From Oscillatoria sp. CS-180 (GTDB taxonomy: Bacteria; Cyanobacteriota; Cyanobacteriia; Phormidesmidales; Phormidesmidaceae): 50,288 nt of DNA. The translations under genes were made by a program, and so were the position numbers. Positions 2,036 through 42,687 of the stretch are shown in pieces (position 1 is the stretch's first letter; each line of letters begins with the position of its first letter). The stretch is taken from positions 1 through 50,288 of the forward strand of contig NZ_JAQMUB010000048.1 in assembly GCF_028330965.1 (NCBI RefSeq). The letters are read 5' to 3'. The notes below the pieces were generated by a model that saw only the letters and a list, made by a program, of their open reading frames with translations, was not told where the DNA came from and searched no databases.

Positions 2036-2641
2036 TCAGCTGTGAATTCGGGGTTCAGGGTGAAGGGTAGAGAGGAGTTTGCTTTCAACTTCAGATAGTT
2101 CGAGAAGACGAGTGTTGACGGTTTCTCGATCAAAGTAGGTGGTGGCAAGAACCCAATAGGCTCCATAGTGTCGAGCTTCGGAAGCCATGAGACTGCTGTA
2201 GAACTTCGCCAAGTCAGGCTCGGGGCAGTGGGCAGCAAGGAGACCGAGTCGTTCATGGCTACGAGCTTCGATGAGCGCTGCCACCAAGAGCGAGTCAAGC
2301 ATTCGCAGGGGTTCTTGGCGACGAACCTGAGCGCTCAATCCGGCACCGTAGGGAGGGGCTGGCAAAGGCTTCAAAGGCACCTTGCGGCGTTCTAGCCACT
2401 GGTTCACTAACTCAAAATGACCGAGTTCCTCTTGAGCGATCGCCGTCAATGCTCGCACTAATTTTTCGCTGGAGGGATAGCGACACATCAGGTTCAGAGC
2501 GACCCCGGCAGCCTTGCGTTCACAGTGAGAATGATCGAGCAGCACCGTATCCAGGTTTGCCAATGCCTGATCCAGCCACGCTTGAGACGTTGGCGTTTGC
2601 AAAAACTGAATGGTAGACATTGCGTTGGGAGCCGCGACCAT
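2036..2641 (-). CDS. miaE: tRNA-(ms2io6A)-hydroxylase MiaE
   Basis: A diiron hydroxylase that acts on the hypermodified adenosine 37 of tRNA. The 201 residues contain the ligand pattern expected of the MiaE ferritin-like fold: an early Glu in DHSHCERKAAGVAL, EELGHFELV, then EARSHERLGLL, and SEARHYGAYW. Two Glu-x-x-His type motifs plus separate Glu residues fit the diiron site. Length is normal. The first ATG gives an N-terminus of MVAAPNAMST; the second Met, seven residues in, is an equally good start. It is convergent with the glycosylase gene and lies 28 bases downstream of the large kinase-like gene on the same strand, so the two could be co-transcribed. The family is certain; the exact substrate in this organism is inferred. 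Confidence 0.9.
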   Translation of the reverse strand: MVAAPNAMSTIQFLQTPTSQAWLDQALANLDTVLLDHSHCERKAAGVALNLMCRYPSSEKLVRALTAIAQEELGHFELVNQWLERRKVPLKPLPAPPYGAGLSAQVRRQEPLRMLDSLLVAALIEARSHERLGLLAAHCPEPDLAKFYSSLMASEARHYGAYWVLATTYFDRETVNTRLLELSEVESKLLSTLHPEPRIHS

Positions 2642-2669: not shown

Positions 2670-4625
2670 TTATTCTAACTCTGTGCTTTCCTCGGGGACT
2701 TGAGGGGTGGAGGTGGCTTGAAGCCTTGATAGTTGGTATTGAGCATCTTCGTAGCAATCAGTGCGTCCCAAATCTAAACAAAGCTGCGATGCTTTCTGAA
2801 GGTCCGTGATCGCAGCTGAAGTATTGCCCAGGTCAGCTTGTAATAGCCCTCGGTCATAGACAGCAAAAACATAGTCGGAATCAATTGCGATCGCTTTGGA
2901 AAAATCTTCCATCGCACCAGGAATATCGTCCATGGCCTGTCGAGTGAGGCCGCGATTGTAATAGGAATCGGAGCTGTCTGGTTCAATCTTGATCGCGATG
3001 TTGTAATCCTGTAGTGATCCCTTAAAGTCACCTAAACGCCGCTTAACTAATCCGCGATTTTGATAAGCTAAACCGTGACTTGGGCGCAGGCCAATTGCTG
3101 CTGAGCAATCATCTAAGGCAGCAACCTGTTCTCCCACGTTGGAATATGACAAACAGCGATTCAGATAGGCCGCCGCTTCAACTTCGGCTGAAGGCTCTAA
3201 TTCAAGGGCCTGAGTGTAGTCTTCAATCGCGCCTTGATCATCGCCCCAGGCCGCACGAGCACTGCCTCGATTCACATAGGCTTTGGTAAAAGTCGCGTCG
3301 TGCCTAATCGATTGGGTGTAGTCCTCGATCGCACCTTGCACATCACCTACTGCAAATCGAAGGTTGCCGCGATCGTAGAGATAGTTTGGATGTTGAGGAA
3401 CGAGTTCAATTGCCCTTGTAATATCTGCTAGCGCCGCTTCTGTGTCGCCCAACTCGAACTGTAGCTGACTCCGCTCTGACAGAGCCTCTGGATTATTAGG
3501 AAAGAGTTGGATAGCACGGGTATAGCGATTAATAGCCCCGTCGGGATCATTGAGCTTTGCAATTTCCGCATCTCGCATGTGTCGCTTTGCCAAAAATCGC
3601 TGCGGAAGTTCTAGGGCGACCAAACCGGCAAGCAAAGCTAGAAACGCAATTCCGGCAACGCCGATAACTTTCCACGGTAGCTTTCTCGTGAATGACCTTT
3701 GGGGAGTAGTTGCGGAAAGTGTCATCCGTCGTGCAGGAACTGAAGGCTGAATGGTGATTGGCAGATCAGCTATGGTTTGGCTATCAATTTGTTCAATATC
3801 TGACAGCACATCGGTTGCTTTTTGATACCGTCTATCAGGGCTGGGATGCACCATACGAGCCAGCAAGCTAATCATATTGACGCTCAATCCTGGAATGCCC
3901 TCTAGCAACCCAACAATTTCCTGTCGCAAGTTAGGATGTTGGGCGGCAGGTAACTCTTCAGCAGCTAGTCCGGTCAAGGCTTGAACCGTCAACATCCCCA
4001 GCGCATAGTGATCGCTGCAAAAAGTGGATTGTCCCTGGAACTGTTCAGGCGCTAGGTAGAATCGACTGGAAGGAGGCGAGTGATGCGAACTGAACACAGC
4101 ATCTCGGCTGAAGACATTTTGACTAATACTTTTGATAGCCCCAAAATCCAACACCACTAGACGGTTATCTTTCTGGTGTCGGATCAGTTTTGAGGGCTTC
4201 AGATTGCCGTGAACAACTCCGCGTTCCTGAGCAAAGGCGACCACGGGTAAAACTTCTTTAAGAAAGTAAAGGGCATCGGATTGCGACCACGGTTGCCCAC
4301 TAACCAGCTCTTCTTTGAGCGATCGCCCAGGAATGAATTCCTGAACAACATAGAAACTCTGCTCAAAGTCAAAGGCAGCAAACGTACTAGGGACTTGCTC
4401 ATGCTGCCCAATGACCTCCAAAACCTCAACTTTTTTTCTAAGCAAGCTAAAAATAAACTTTCGAGTCATCGGGTTACGGGTTGGAAGCCGTAACTGCCTG
4501 ACAACACATCTAGGATGTCCCGGATAATGAATATCTGCCGCCAGAAATGTCTGACCCGCCGGATGGGCGCTAAGAACCTGAACAATCTGGTACCGCCCTC
4601 CAAGGAGCTTTTGAGTCGCAGACAT
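2670..4625 (-). CDS. Ser/Thr kinase homologue with TPR repeats, probable pseudokinase
   Basis: A 651-residue protein (ATG at 4625 preceded by GAAGGGA; a TTG at 4646 would add seven residues). Residues 10-280 form a eukaryotic-type protein kinase fold of the cyanobacterial Spk type. A membrane segment lies at about 320-340 and six to seven TPR units at 355-640. Key residues are missing: the glycine-rich loop is degraded (LSAHPAGQTF), the ATP-binding Lys is Arg (CVVRQL, about residue 43), HRD is HGN (139-141) and the catalytic-loop Asn is Lys (KPSK). Only DFG (160-162) is intact. The SpkB-like kinase elsewhere in this window keeps all four motifs. A scaffold or sensor role with an external TPR domain is likely; catalysis is unlikely but not excluded. 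Confidence 0.88.
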   Translation of the reverse strand: MSATQKLLGGRYQIVQVLSAHPAGQTFLAADIHYPGHPRCVVRQLRLPTRNPMTRKFIFSLLRKKVEVLEVIGQHEQVPSTFAAFDFEQSFYVVQEFIPGRSLKEELVSGQPWSQSDALYFLKEVLPVVAFAQERGVVHGNLKPSKLIRHQKDNRLVVLDFGAIKSISQNVFSRDAVFSSHHSPPSSRFYLAPEQFQGQSTFCSDHYALGMLTVQALTGLAAEELPAAQHPNLRQEIVGLLEGIPGLSVNMISLLARMVHPSPDRRYQKATDVLSDIEQIDSQTIADLPITIQPSVPARRMTLSATTPQRSFTRKLPWKVIGVAGIAFLALLAGLVALELPQRFLAKRHMRDAEIAKLNDPDGAINRYTRAIQLFPNNPEALSERSQLQFELGDTEAALADITRAIELVPQHPNYLYDRGNLRFAVGDVQGAIEDYTQSIRHDATFTKAYVNRGSARAAWGDDQGAIEDYTQALELEPSAEVEAAAYLNRCLSYSNVGEQVAALDDCSAAIGLRPSHGLAYQNRGLVKRRLGDFKGSLQDYNIAIKIEPDSSDSYYNRGLTRQAMDDIPGAMEDFSKAIAIDSDYVFAVYDRGLLQADLGNTSAAITDLQKASQLCLDLGRTDCYEDAQYQLSRLQATSTPQVPEESTELE

Positions 4626-4646
4626 ATGGTAGATGAATCCCTTCAA

Positions 4647-5373
4647 ACTTTTCTGTCAATCAATCTAGAAGCGATTTATTGACTGCTTATAGATTAGGTG
4701 AAGAAAGGACTTTAACAATTCGACACATCATCTTAATGAGATTGGAATGTCTTTATACACCCTTAGGATAAACAGTCCTTGAGACTTTACGGTGAAGCTT
4801 GCTCTTTAGATTGCCCTGAATGTGGAGAAATAGCCTCACTCATCAAACTCTCAAAGCTGATAGCGCTGACAAAAAATACAGACAAAGACGGCCAGGGTAT
4901 GGCGGGTAATTGAACAAACTTCACGGACAGCGTAAGGCATCATTCGTAACCTACACCCGATGTAATAAAAGTAACCGTTCTCTGCTGATTGACCTGGATT
5001 GTTAGAGGAACACGCTCATGAATCCTCTAGCACCTTGAACGCTTCATCTGTAGAACGTTGCTCTTGCCGTCAGGGATTACGCCTACAATCCTACGACATA
5101 TATGAAACCATCGCCTACATTAAGCTTTTGTAGTTAGACGAACTTCTTTCCACAAATGAAACGGTGACAAGGCGGCTATATTCAATCCGTATCGGAAGAC
5201 GTTGGTCTGCAAAAGAGCTGTCTAAATGGTTTGCACTGCCTCGAAGATTGTGTCATTAATCCGTCTTTTACATCATCCAATTTTGTATTTTTATTTCATA
5301 ATGATGACTGGCTTAGACCCATTCAGCAGAATTAGGCCCTAGCCCAATTGGTTTCAGCAATACAAGGGATTTT
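4647..5373. other. Intergenic region, no gene seen
   Basis: About 730 bases without a convincing reading frame. The only clear structure is TAGAGGA-N13-TCCTCTA at 5003-5029, a perfect 7-bp inverted repeat that includes a short ATG frame of a few codons. The region must hold the promoter of the kinase-like gene (leftward) and of the gene at 5374 (rightward). No tRNA or known small RNA was recognised. Confidence 0.4.
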
Positions 5374-5787
5374 ATGAGCGCACCCCAGCCTATATTTGAT
5401 GTTGAACCTTCGGAGCGGCTAAAAGCACTTCGGCAAAAGCGCCAAAAGCAACGCCACCCTAAGGCTCGCTCAGCGCGCTATCGAGCTTTGGGATGGGAAA
5501 TGACCGGGCGCCTAACGGTGAATTTAGTGATTGCGCTCATGGGTCTGTCAGCACTCGTTCGGTTAATTCCTTACTATCAAACCCAGCGCCAGTTTTTGCA
5601 GCAAACAGAAAGTTCTTTGGAACAGGTTCAATCGCAAAATAGTCGCCTGCGGGCAGATTTCACTCGATACTTTGATCCAGCACAAACCAGTCAGGCTATG
5701 CAGGAGAGTAGCGATCGCAAGTCTGAAGGACATATTCCCGTCGTTTTAGTCGATCCCCTTGAGCTACAGGTCGAAGACGGCGAATGA
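5374..5787 (+). CDS. Small single-pass membrane protein with coiled coil, slr1601-like
   Basis: A 137-residue protein with a very basic cytoplasmic N-terminus (KALRQKRQKQRHPKARSARY), one membrane segment at about residues 47-66 (LTVNLVIALMGLSALVRLIP) and a Gln-rich coiled-coil stretch at 70-95 (RQFLQQTESSLEQVQSQNSR), then a short tail. This basic-TM-coiled-coil order is that of FtsL/FtsB-type division proteins, and cyanobacteria have a conserved family of this kind, named after Synechocystis slr1601, proposed to act in cell division. I recognise the architecture, not a sequence-level proof. The start has AAGGGA five bases upstream. It faces the YdcF-like gene tail to tail and has no operon partner. 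Confidence 0.65.
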   Translation: MSAPQPIFDVEPSERLKALRQKRQKQRHPKARSARYRALGWEMTGRLTVNLVIALMGLSALVRLIPYYQTQRQFLQQTESSLEQVQSQNSRLRADFTRYFDPAQTSQAMQESSDRKSEGHIPVVLVDPLELQVEDGE

Positions 5788-13449: not shown

Positions 13450-14221
13450 GGAAACCGATGCAGAAGGCTGAGGGGAGGCTTTGAGAGGCTGCTTCTAGGT
13501 GAGATTTATCAATCCCAGACTACAAATTTCAAACGAGTTTAGAGAGCTAGATAGAAATGAGGGTTATCCACTATGGGTAGGGGGCTAGTTATTTAGGAGC
13601 AGGACTGTCCCTCACAAACGAAATTCAAACTGCCTAACAAGGCATATCCTAAGGGTAATTACAGAGAAAGACCAAAAGGTCTGAGACTAACATCTTTACT
13701 GTAAGAATACGGACTTTTCACCGATAAGCATCAGGGAATTTCATAATAAATGCATTGCTCCTCGTCAAAACCACATAATCACTATTCCCTGTTTTTGAGG
13801 AAAACACTCAATCAGACTTGATTTTTGTCATGGGTCTTGCATGAGAGGGAGACAAAGAGCATATCCCTTGCAACCCTCACTTTACATCTCTTCCCAAGCT
13901 TACGAGAAGAGGAATAAGAGGGCGATACAGGGGAATTGCAAACTTGACATACTCTTTGGAAAAACATCCTACCTGTTGAGTCAAGCCCCATCGCAAAAAT
14001 TAGGGGACAAAGGGTTAGACAGTGAGAACAGTTCCTTATTACCACTTGGTCTACAACCTGCTCAAAGAGGTGCTGAGCCACACTCTGGGTAGATTGATCA
14101 ACACAGCTGCACTGTCAGATCACGTCTTTTTACAGCCTGAATTTTTTTTCAGCTTGAATTCAGGTAGAGCACGAGCTGACTCGCGATGCTAAGACCATCG
14201 CTCACTTGAGGCAGTCAACCC
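13450..14221. other. Intergenic region with small inverted repeats
   Basis: About 770 bases with no convincing gene; the short frames on both strands at 13812-14092 lie over each other and match nothing. Structures seen: AGACC-AAAA-GGTCT at 13670-13683; CCTC...AAAAC paired with GTTTT...GAGG at 13760-13800; and CCTGAATT-N13-AATTCAGG, a perfect 8-bp dyad, at 14136-14164, 58 bases before the NADH dehydrogenase start and a possible operator or 5'-leader hairpin. Confidence 0.4.
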
Positions 14222-39998: not shown

Positions 39999-41024
39999 GT
40001 GAACTCATCCGCCATGATGCTGCCTCATTCAACAAAGCTAGCGCCCACCTCTCCTGAAACTCATACTGTCTCTTCAGAGACCGGTTCTCTGAGGCAACAA
40101 TCCCTATCGTCGTCATCGCTCAACTTATTGGCCTTGGGAGGATGGCGCTGCACAAAAACGCTGGACGTGCATCGGAGCTGGGTCCGAACCATAGCCGTTA
40201 GTTCTGATAACCGATATGTTGCCAGCGGTAGCGGCGATACTAAAGTCGCTCTATGGCGCTATCCCCAAGGGGAATTGGTGACTCTGCTGGAAGGACACAC
40301 CGCCTGGGTTCGCTGTGTTGCCTTTAGTCCTGATAGCAAGCTGTTAGCCACGGCCTGCAACGATGACGTTATTCGACTGTGGGATGTAGAAACTCGATCG
40401 CTGGTGGATGTTCTGAAAGGGCACACCAATTGGATTCGAGCGATCGCCTTTAGCCCAGACGGTCGCTATCTTTTTAGCGGCAGTCAAGACAAGACGGTAC
40501 GGGTTTGGCAAATCGGACAGTCAAATCCGCTCAAAACACTGATAGGGCACGAGCACTGGGTCCGCTCGATCGCGATTAGCCCAGACGGTTCAACGTTGGT
40601 CAGTGGCGGACAGGATCATCAAGTTAGGATTCATCGATTGACGGGTCGGGGGACGAACCACAATCTAGTGGGTCATACAGCAGAGGTTCACTCTGTGGCA
40701 ATCAGCCCTAACAATTGGCTAGTGGCAACCGCAGGAGCAGACCGCACTGTCCGATTTTGGAAACTGAATAGCGGTCGTCAAATCACGGCGTTCAAGGCCC
40801 ATTCTGCCCCCATCAATTGCGTCACGTTCAGCCCCGATGGTGAGCTGCTAGTCACCGCTAGCAATGACAAGACGGTCCGCATTTGGCACATCGACAGTGG
40901 TCGCTTAGTGGGCCTTTTGGAAGGTCATGAAGGCTGGGTCTGGTCAGCGGTCTTTGCCCAAGACAGTCGCACTATCGTGAGTGGTGGCTGGAACGGCGAG
41001 GTCAGGATCTGGACACGGACGTGA
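39999..41024 (+). CDS. WD40-repeat protein
   Basis: A 341-residue protein forming one seven-bladed WD40 propeller from about residue 52. Repeats are clear: AVSSDNRYVASGSGDTKVAL, then LEGHTAWVRCVAFSPDSKLL, LKGHTNWIRAIAFSPDGRYL, GHEHWVRSIAISPDGSTLVS, GHTAEVHSVAISPNN, then ITAFKAHSAPINCVTFSPDG and LEGHEGWVWSAVFAQDSR. The first 50 residues are Ser/Thr-rich and disordered. The start is a GTG at 39999 or ATG at 40014/40017. There is no kinase, caspase or NB-ARC domain. WD40 propellers act as protein-binding platforms; no partner is evident, although the convergent neighbour is a Ser/Thr kinase. Confidence 0.88.
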   Translation: MNSSAMMLPHSTKLAPTSPETHTVSSETGSLRQQSLSSSSLNLLALGGWRCTKTLDVHRSWVRTIAVSSDNRYVASGSGDTKVALWRYPQGELVTLLEGHTAWVRCVAFSPDSKLLATACNDDVIRLWDVETRSLVDVLKGHTNWIRAIAFSPDGRYLFSGSQDKTVRVWQIGQSNPLKTLIGHEHWVRSIAISPDGSTLVSGGQDHQVRIHRLTGRGTNHNLVGHTAEVHSVAISPNNWLVATAGADRTVRFWKLNSGRQITAFKAHSAPINCVTFSPDGELLVTASNDKTVRIWHIDSGRLVGLLEGHEGWVWSAVFAQDSRTIVSGGWNGEVRIWTRT

Positions 41025-41061: not shown

Positions 41062-42687
41062 TCAACGCATGAGTCCACGTTTGCCATTGGGATATACGGT
41101 GGACCAGTTGGTTCGAGCAACGGCTAACTGATCGTCGGTGATGCGAGCACCCGTCAAATCAGCACCGCAGAGATTAGCTCCCTTAAGGTTGGCTTTTAGG
41201 AGGGTAGCGTAGCTCAAGTCTGCGCCTCTGAGGTCGGCATTCTGGAGATTAGCACTACTGAAATAGGCTCGGCCTAAGTTAGCGCCTCGTAGAGAGGCTT
41301 TCGTTAGGTCAGCACGACCAAAGTTGACATTGCTCAGGTCCGAATTTTGAAAATTAGCTTTCTGGAGCTTGGCATCAGAAAAGTTACCATCGCTCAAAGA
41401 CACCCTTTGTAGATCCACTGAGGTGAGCGTCAACATGGAAAAGTCGCGTCTGCCCTTGCCGTAGGAATCTTTGAGCGCGTCGGCACTCAGCTTTCCTGTG
41501 CCTCCAGAACGGGTGTTGCCCGTCGTGCGATCGCCCCTAGACCGAATGACGCTGTTCATGCCATACCCATTAACCGTATTGAGATTTCTAGAATTAGACG
41601 AACTGCGTGAACTAGCCCGTTCTCGTCGCGCTCGGATAGCAGCAGCCATACGAGACGATGGAGACTCCTTCTGTACCGGCGATCGCTTCTCTCGCAGATT
41701 TCGGTAAGCTGGATTGCCGTCAGCAGTGGGGTCGTTTCGTCCATTGCCAGAATTAGGGAAGGCCATGTTCTGGGCCAGACTGTCCATATACGGTTCTAGG
41801 TCAAGATCTCGCAGGATGGCCTCGACAGACTGGTAGCGATGACGAACCGAAATTTCCAGCATCTTTTGCAGCACTTGAGCGAAGTGATCACTCACATGGA
41901 CTAATCCGCGCCACATCATTTCCCCAGTCGTAGGGTCATAGTTCAAGTCTTTAGGTGACTTTGCGGTCAGCAGATAAATGCAGGTCACCCCAATGGCATA
42001 TAGGTCACTAGCATAGACAGGACGCATTGCCATCTGTTCAGGAGGCGCATAGCCCGGAGTCCCAATTGCGTAGGCCGTAAGCGTCGTCTGGTCCAACGTT
42101 TCAGAAGAGGGATTGACCTTGTCTTTAACCGCTCCAAAATCAATCAAGACTAGCTTTTTATCTTCATCTCGACGGATTAGGTTTGCGGGTTTGATGTCGC
42201 GGTGGATGACTTTGCTTTCGTGAACGTATTGAATCAGCGGCAGGGCTTCACTTAAAAACTGGCGCACGCCCGCTTCGCTGAAGGGACCGCCTTGCCTGAC
42301 TTCCTGTTGTAGTGTCTTACCGTTGATAAACTCTTGAACCAGAAAGAATTCTTGATTGGTTTCAAAGTAATCCAGCAGTCGAGGCAGCTGAGGATGATTG
42401 CCAATTTTGCCGAGAATCTTCGCTTCTCGTTGAAACAGATCCCGAGCCATATCTAAGATGTGCTGGGCATCGGCAGAGGGACGCAGTTGTTTAATGACAC
42501 ACAGCGGATGACCTGGAAGAGACTCGTCGCGGGCCAAAAAAGTCGCACCAAATCCACCCCGACCCAGCGCCCGCAAAGCACGGTAGCGATCGCGCAGACG
42601 CAACAAAGAGCCGCAGGCCTGACAATGGGTAACGCGGGGGGGGTTTTTGGGCTTTGGGCAGTCCAGATTGGTGCAATAACTACTCAT
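41062..42687 (-). CDS. spkB: Ser/Thr protein kinase with Cys motif and pentapeptide repeats (SpkB-like)
   Basis: A 541-residue eukaryotic-type kinase. The N-terminus has a Cys motif, C5-X4-C10 and C22-X2-C25, the redox-sensitive pattern described for Synechocystis SpkB. The kinase domain (35-300) is intact: glycine loop LGRGGFGATF (41-50), Lys 66 in CVIKQL, HRD 162-164 in HRDIKPANLI, DFG 183-185 and GTPGYAPPEQ. A Ser/Arg/Asn-rich linker follows (about 325-410), then about 20 pentapeptide repeats (A(D/N)LxxA, for example LRGANLGRAYFSSANLQNAD) to the end. SpkB has been linked to oxidative-stress tolerance. The symbol rests on architecture. It is convergent with the WD40 gene; direct repeats lie upstream. 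Confidence 0.9.
   Translation of the reverse strand: MSSYCTNLDCPKPKNPPRVTHCQACGSLLRLRDRYRALRALGRGGFGATFLARDESLPGHPLCVIKQLRPSADAQHILDMARDLFQREAKILGKIGNHPQLPRLLDYFETNQEFFLVQEFINGKTLQQEVRQGGPFSEAGVRQFLSEALPLIQYVHESKVIHRDIKPANLIRRDEDKKLVLIDFGAVKDKVNPSSETLDQTTLTAYAIGTPGYAPPEQMAMRPVYASDLYAIGVTCIYLLTAKSPKDLNYDPTTGEMMWRGLVHVSDHFAQVLQKMLEISVRHRYQSVEAILRDLDLEPYMDSLAQNMAFPNSGNGRNDPTADGNPAYRNLREKRSPVQKESPSSRMAAAIRARRERASSRSSSNSRNLNTVNGYGMNSVIRSRGDRTTGNTRSGGTGKLSADALKDSYGKGRRDFSMLTLTSVDLQRVSLSDGNFSDAKLQKANFQNSDLSNVNFGRADLTKASLRGANLGRAYFSSANLQNADLRGADLSYATLLKANLKGANLCGADLTGARITDDQLAVARTNWSTVYPNGKRGLMR

Follow-up and report, generated by a model that had tools for sequence, protein, structure and literature searches.

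The window, by which we mean the whole 50,288-nucleotide stretch of DNA analysed here, encodes a membrane-linked pseudokinase fused to TPRs that is conserved among cyanobacteria and is not an oddity of one genome. Judging from its sequence, we think it fairly probable that the protein is a non-catalytic transmembrane receptor or scaffold of the cyanobacterial kinase-transmembrane-TPR family whose pseudokinase domain docks a partner; cousins of the gene adjoin a gene for a working kinase, and the window protein therefore probably relays signals by binding and not by phosphorylating. The upstream position of a pseudokinase gene beside an intact TPR-kinase gene, seen in families f19 and f34, is a newly found arrangement and the most useful lead from this work. 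The pseudokinase family is common to several cyanobacterial families and is under selection, and since some lineages encode the pair and others either member alone, they are natural experiments on the contribution that a pseudokinase makes to a kinase.

Table 1. Features of the window discussed in the text, with positions counted from its first nucleotide.
Feature	Positions	Strand	Remarks
MiaE-family tRNA hydroxylase gene	2036..2641	-	28 bp downstream of the pseudokinase gene; Pfam MiaE, 276 bits
Pseudokinase-transmembrane-TPR gene	2670..4625	-	ATG at 4625; 651 aa
Sixteen helices read as eight TPRs, residues 361-638	2712..3545	-	Pfam TPR, full-length model
Cysteine pair C616/C624	2754..2780	-	neighbouring helices 602-619 and 622-638
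Cysteine pair C491/C507	3105..3155	-	neighbouring helices 480-496 and 500-513
Transmembrane helix, residues 320-338	3612..3668	-	hydropathy, alignments
Kinase-fold domain, residues 7-281	3783..4607	-	Pfam Pkinase, phmmer to PknB, AlphaFold2 model and structure match
DFG, retained, residues 160-162	4140..4148	-
K146 (KPSK) at the catalytic-loop Asn position	4188..4190	-
H139-G140-N141 at the HRD position	4203..4211	-
K65 at the alpha-C Glu position	4431..4433	-
R43 (CVVRQL) at the beta3 (VAIK) Lys position	4497..4499	-
Degenerate glycine loop LSAHPAGQTFLA, residues 18-29	4539..4574	-	replaces LGxGGFGxTYLA
SpkB-like kinase, internal control	41062..42687	-	K, E, D, N and DFG intact (KEDND)

A kinase fold with a dismantled active site

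The kinase-like domain scores 57.6 bits against the Pfam Pkinase profile (cut-off 31.7), its closest solved relatives by phmmer are PknB and StkP-type kinases, and its AlphaFold2 model (pLDDT 83.2, pTM 0.81) matches PknB and Stk1 with a Z of about 25; EssB/YukC is absent from the best 50 structure matches listed for this model. By Pfam and by the model the protein has the Hanks-type Ser/Thr kinase fold, and it lacks the residue set of an active Hanks-type kinase: read in the order beta3 Lys, alpha-C Glu, HRD Asp, catalytic Asn and DFG Asp, its catalytic state is R-K-N-K-D, the DFG Asp being the sole remainder. Pseudokinases are defined, in the passages of PMC12599244 that bear on the matter, by loss of the beta3 Lys, the HRD Asp or the DFG Asp, and two of these three are lost here. 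The sequence-only reading had listed the glycine loop, beta3 Lys, HRD and catalytic Asn as lost and DFG and the fold as kept, and every residue call proves correct; the loss of the alpha-C Glu is a further one that it did not contain. The nearest named relatives are from uncultured Halomicronema.

That reading had also pointed to the SpkB-like kinase at 41062 as retaining all catalytic residues, which it does, and because it keeps K, E, D, N and DFG the control holds. The gene for this pentapeptide kinase is convergent with a stretch at 39999-41024 (+) that looks WD40-like by eye. The organism's own genome yields 20 matches to the family profile at E<=1e-10, and 18 of the other 19 could be read, all 18 with an HRD-type Asp (the beta3 and alpha-C columns are unreadable in two of these kinases, L223 and L224). 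The nineteenth match, C14:11743-12273, is one of two kinase-like stretches of a long ORF and has HRN and no DFG, so the window gene is not the sole degraded kinase domain of its genome. This ORF on contig C14 (L221, L225; C14:10891-12273, minus strand) encodes a degraded HRN domain and then a domain with HQD and DFN, a pseudokinase-kinase tandem inside one protein that differs in class from the window gene. The top-scoring intact relative in the same genome (L207, G000:C60) is an intact kinase followed by a TPR-like part and has no clear transmembrane helix.

The transmembrane helix is followed by a PQ (residues 341-342), which shows no variation in alignments A1 and A2, and then by the TPR region. 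The full-length model was built from three sequences and its kinase half is poor, so its TPR part alone was used; pLDDT there is mostly 82-97, falling to 71-72 at its end. Pfam also returns a TPR_BSK1_C match in the protein, below the cut-off of that profile. Exactly four cysteines lie beyond residue 360 within the aligned part, at the same positions in all 26 solitary proteins examined. In an alignment of 50 solitary, paired and active members (the 26 chosen solitary proteins and 24 sequences from 13 of 40 pair regions), the pair 491/507 is complete in 45 sequences and wholly absent from 5, the pair 616/624 is complete in 32 and wholly absent from 18, and in no sequence does one cysteine of a pair occur without the other. 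It is in 18 f34 sequences that the second pair is missing and in five of six f19 sequences that the first is, and since the rows are related these losses amount to few events. Cysteines kept or lost as pairs probably form two disulfides, which would place the TPRs in the periplasm or the thylakoid lumen; the earlier suggestion that the TPRs are external is thus probably right, on the evidence of these paired, invariant cysteines.

Conservation and selection of the pseudokinase

At least 42 of 388 genomes of the class match profile A2 at 392 bits or more, a line placed, after the scores had been viewed, at the gap above the next score of 363 among the matches listed; the profile was built from members of the family, and in this search and that of the window's family the best five candidates per genome were scored. 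The HRD Asp is absent from every one of the 42 homologues above the gap, all of which were read; below the line stand intact kinases together with further degraded ones. Within the window's family the gene occurs in at least 35 of 63 genomes, and there are several genera in which, among the matches listed, no sampled genome has it.

What these proteins share is an absence. The sequence-only reading had proposed aligning orthologues to see whether HGN and the Arg are conserved, and as such they are not: what the group has in common is that the catalytic Asp and the alpha-C Glu are gone. In the larger tree none of the 41 pseudokinase rows has either residue, and all 47 pseudokinase rows of the kinase-domain residue table (87 domains, from 100 after removal of identical ones) are likewise without the alpha-C Glu. 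At the site of the HRD Asp the solitary branches carry N, E, H, R, T, C or S; Arg at the beta3 position is found in the window's genus and in G058, and again in L109, L118 and L151, with Lys in the other solitary members read; Lys for the catalytic Asn is confined to the window's branch and G058; and the DFG Asp has become Gly in members of f3, f4, f10 and f24. Among the 41 rows the beta3 Lys persists in 19, the catalytic Asn in 26 and the DFG Asp in 24, and with these residues kept in so many rows nucleotide binding may persist in many of the pseudokinases. The mildest case, L059 (G009), has the glycine loop, Lys, Asn and DFG, with HGE at the HRD position and Lys for the alpha-C Glu. Orthologues with an intact HRD and Lys had been named as the sign of a recent local decay; the HRD Asp occurs in 0 of the 42, and the beta3 Lys is nevertheless kept in many solitary members.

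These retained residues bear on the idea that an unusual catalysis survives, be it a remnant of phosphotransfer or, as in SelO, a different nucleotide reaction. The window's branch still has DFG, many solitary members have Lys, Asn and DFG, and some pseudokinases do catalyse other reactions (PMC12599244, in the passages concerned). The base site, the DFG Asp and the glycine loop nonetheless vary from one solitary branch to another, so that no conserved set of active-site residues remains, and we regard retained catalysis as improbable.

The gene is maintained by selection. In seven pairs of close solitary homologues the kinase-domain dN/dS is 0.026-0.092, similar to the 0.036-0.154 of the TPR part; eight pairs had been chosen and L076/L081 was left out, L081 being identical to another row, two of the seven pairs share a sequence, and the window's own sequence, having no close enough relative, lies outside the set. 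Ratios this low exclude simple decay, and the recent local decay that the earlier reading had set against its own proposal is ruled out by them; its description of a conserved pseudokinase agrees with these ratios and with the universal loss of the catalytic Asp above the score gap. The window's branch has suffered more active-site losses than its nearest relatives, as would be expected if the gene had lost its function in this lineage and were now decaying, but the listed family members have open frames without inner stops and the four cysteines are invariant, and together with the strong purifying selection in the seven pairs this makes such decay extremely improbable.

Pseudokinase-kinase gene pairs and their ancestry

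In two families other than the window's, f19 and f34, the gene immediately upstream of an intact TPR-kinase gene, and co-oriented with it, codes for a similar pseudokinase. The pair is present in 32 of the 40 regions fetched (L166-L205; 5 of 5 from f19 and 27 of 35 from f34), which is not a frequency, since the regions were chosen from matches and at least the first 20 of them because both genes had been seen. The pseudokinase gene comes first and the intact kinase (KEDND) second in all 32 pairs; by genome, five of the six f19 genomes have the pair. The active f19 partners share the transmembrane-PQ-TPR build of the window protein. In eight f34 regions from four genera the intact kinase stands alone. 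Paired pseudokinases have a higher kinase-domain dN/dS than their active partners in six of seven comparisons (0.10-0.27 vs 0.05-0.14), the seventh being one in which the active kinase is higher, at 0.58 with few silent changes; they thus evolve faster and could be less constrained. Four paired genes from two f34 genera (L193, L196, L197 and L199) are strongly degraded, with ETHGKI at the HRD loop, and have an unusual letter make-up, yet they adjoin an intact kinase.

The pairs suggest that the pseudokinase originally served, or preferentially serves, to act on a kinase. A stricter form of this idea is that the pseudokinase is an obligate allosteric partner, which forms a dimer with an active kinase and turns the latter's activity on or off, the partner of the window protein then being some other intact kinase. 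The co-orientation and constant order of the pairs, the common build of the active f19 partners and the many intact kinases of the window's genome all speak for it. Against it, a profile of the active partner finds no close copy in 60 genomes of the window's family, where the best match reaches 360 bits and covers the kinase domain only (329.6 bits at best in the window's own genome), compared with 564-602 bits in all six f19 and f34 genomes that hold the partner, some of which contributed rows to the profile; the window's pseudokinase thus appears to be without such a partner at home. The eight f34 kinases with no pseudokinase beside them also count against an obligate relation. So do the PknB-type dimer contacts, which we take to be R10, L33 and D76 in PknB numbering, mapped through a PknB alignment: the equivalent positions do not tell active and pseudo members apart. 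We therefore consider an obligate allosteric partnership rather unlikely, and continue to favour a receptor or scaffold that docks its partner.

The ancestry of the pseudokinases reads differently from the two halves of the protein. A kinase-domain tree of 81 rows with the catalytic columns masked (49 chosen rows plus the kinase genes from 18 of the 40 pair regions, all of them cyanobacterial kinases) unites every pseudokinase row in a single clade (96/82) next to the active kinases of f19 and f34, and 98% of its bootstrap trees need one change; a masked tree of 66 rows, from which 21 near-copies of the 87 were left out, gives the same clade (83/89). AU tests do not reject separate formation of the pairs within f19 (p 0.307) or within f34 (p 0.052). 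For the TPR halves, one clade holding every pseudokinase is rejected (p 0.0004), and their tree joins the f34 pseudo- and active kinases (100/100); a clade of solitary and f19 pseudokinases is not rejected (p 0.329). The solitary clade that contains the window gene is found in both trees, with 27 rows at 99/94 in the kinase tree and at 73/82 in the TPR tree. An intact f1 kinase, L080 (G035), falls near the pseudokinase group in the kinase tree with low support.

Because the kinase and TPR halves disagree, we do not claim a single origin: these trees would fit either pseudokinases that originated repeatedly, each next to an active sister, or a single ancient pair whose TPR halves have been homogenised by gene conversion. 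A tentative reading, which we hold to be possible and short of probable, is that in cyanobacteria, perhaps more than once, the first of two tandem genes for a membrane TPR-kinase came to encode a pseudokinase that forms a two-receptor complex with its active sister, as a bacterial counterpart to pairs of a pseudokinase and a kinase receptor like HER3/EGFR, and that the window's lineage kept the pseudo-receptor alone and re-wired it to other kinases. An earlier hint of such pairs may lie in a 2007 survey, which lists two Trichodesmium kinases with neighbouring locus numbers, Tery_4781 (TPR 11, deviating motifs) and Tery_4782 (TPR 10) (PMC2176072); they fit as a candidate pair like those of f19 and f34, although neither paired genes nor a family of this kind is set out in the passages concerned.

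Precedents, a working model and the gene neighbourhood

Degraded cyanobacterial kinases without the catalytic Asp have been noticed before. The same survey describes active cyanobacterial cbSTKII kinases with TPRs, five cyanobacterial STKs that lack the catalytic Asp, among them SpkE, in which no kinase activity was seen, and nine with deviating motifs, including Tery_4781; in the parts of it that bear on SpkE (slr1443), this protein is placed near marine STKs and no TPR domain is given for it (PMC2176072). Passages of PMC1262709 report TPR kinases and include a table of kinase-like sequences from prokaryotes in which the catalytic Asp is missing. Our search, which lay mostly outside the subscription literature, recognised no publication on the pseudokinase-transmembrane-TPR family or on the gene pair; PMC7517822, in the portion concerned, is unrelated. 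The nearest active relatives in our kinase tree (L115, L119, L106-L108 and L147) have the same kinase-transmembrane-TPR order and, unlike the window protein, possess K, E, D, N and DFG.

The closest architectural precedents are EssB/YukC and TraF, from the type VII or type IV secretion systems of Gram-positive bacteria, which, in the passages of PMC13037476 and PMC12599244 that describe them, have a cytosolic pseudokinase domain, one membrane helix and a helical outer domain; the outer domain of TraF resembles TPR proteins, and EssB/YukC is a non-catalytic hub. The window protein likewise has a pseudokinase domain, a single transmembrane helix and a helical domain whose outside location is suggested by its cysteines, so that by the precedent of EssB/YukC a hub role can plausibly be imagined. 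It differs from these proteins in that its TPRs are canonical and carry paired cysteines, and in that its family falls with TPR-kinases in our trees, which cover cyanobacterial kinases. A model for docking is offered by the mycobacterial membrane protein MviN, whose pseudokinase recruits an FHA protein after its phosphorylation by PknB (PMC12599244, in part); MviN differs from the window protein in its family, ActPs3, and in its other fused domains. The same source, in its relevant passages, describes the bacterial CP1 pseudokinases, which occur in cyanobacteria, as variably degraded, without a transmembrane helix and linked to a COG3899 ATPase domain (PMC12599244). The window protein is not assigned to CP1, as it has a transmembrane helix and TPRs, and its Pfam matches at E<=0.001 include no ATPase domain.

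On the receptor or scaffold reading, the disulfide-held external TPR domain would bind a ligand or an envelope partner, the single helix would carry the resulting change to the cytosolic pseudokinase domain, and this domain would dock or release a signalling partner, such as another kinase or a phosphoprotein reader, with no phosphorylation of any target. An active kinase may be the ancestral or favoured partner, and the window's lineage seems to manage without a dedicated one. Plant BSK kinases, eukaryotic proteins without a transmembrane helix that combine a kinase-like domain with C-terminal TPRs, are thought to scaffold receptor signalling; their likeness to the window protein lies in the generic kinase-like and TPR parts.

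The surroundings of the gene are local in character. The MiaE gene follows the orthologue in five of the six genomes of the window's genus, the sixth (G005) having a contig end there, and among the 23 stretches compared it was not found beside the pseudokinase gene outside that genus. MiaE was accordingly rejected as a functional operon partner, and the adjacency, being limited to one genus, is not taken as a sign of function. No neighbour is common to all genera in the 23 stretches, and among the clustered neighbouring ORFs, few of them named, no secretion gene was recognised beside the pseudokinase gene. In other genera the neighbourhood is a different one (for example L133-L135, L142-L144 and L140-L141). 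Some gene families turn up in two to five of the stretches, the window's 5374-5787 reappearing in G058, and a transporter-like gene recurs near the pseudokinase gene in G058, G002 and G003. In L128 a second MiaE-like stretch (13804-14079), 62% identical over part of its length, lies a few kb from the first. In L131 (G009) the pseudokinase gene is followed at 4592-5494 (-) by a gene for a 300-aa protein that by eye looks TPR-like and has a signal-like N-terminus, and that could be an outer partner of the pseudokinase.
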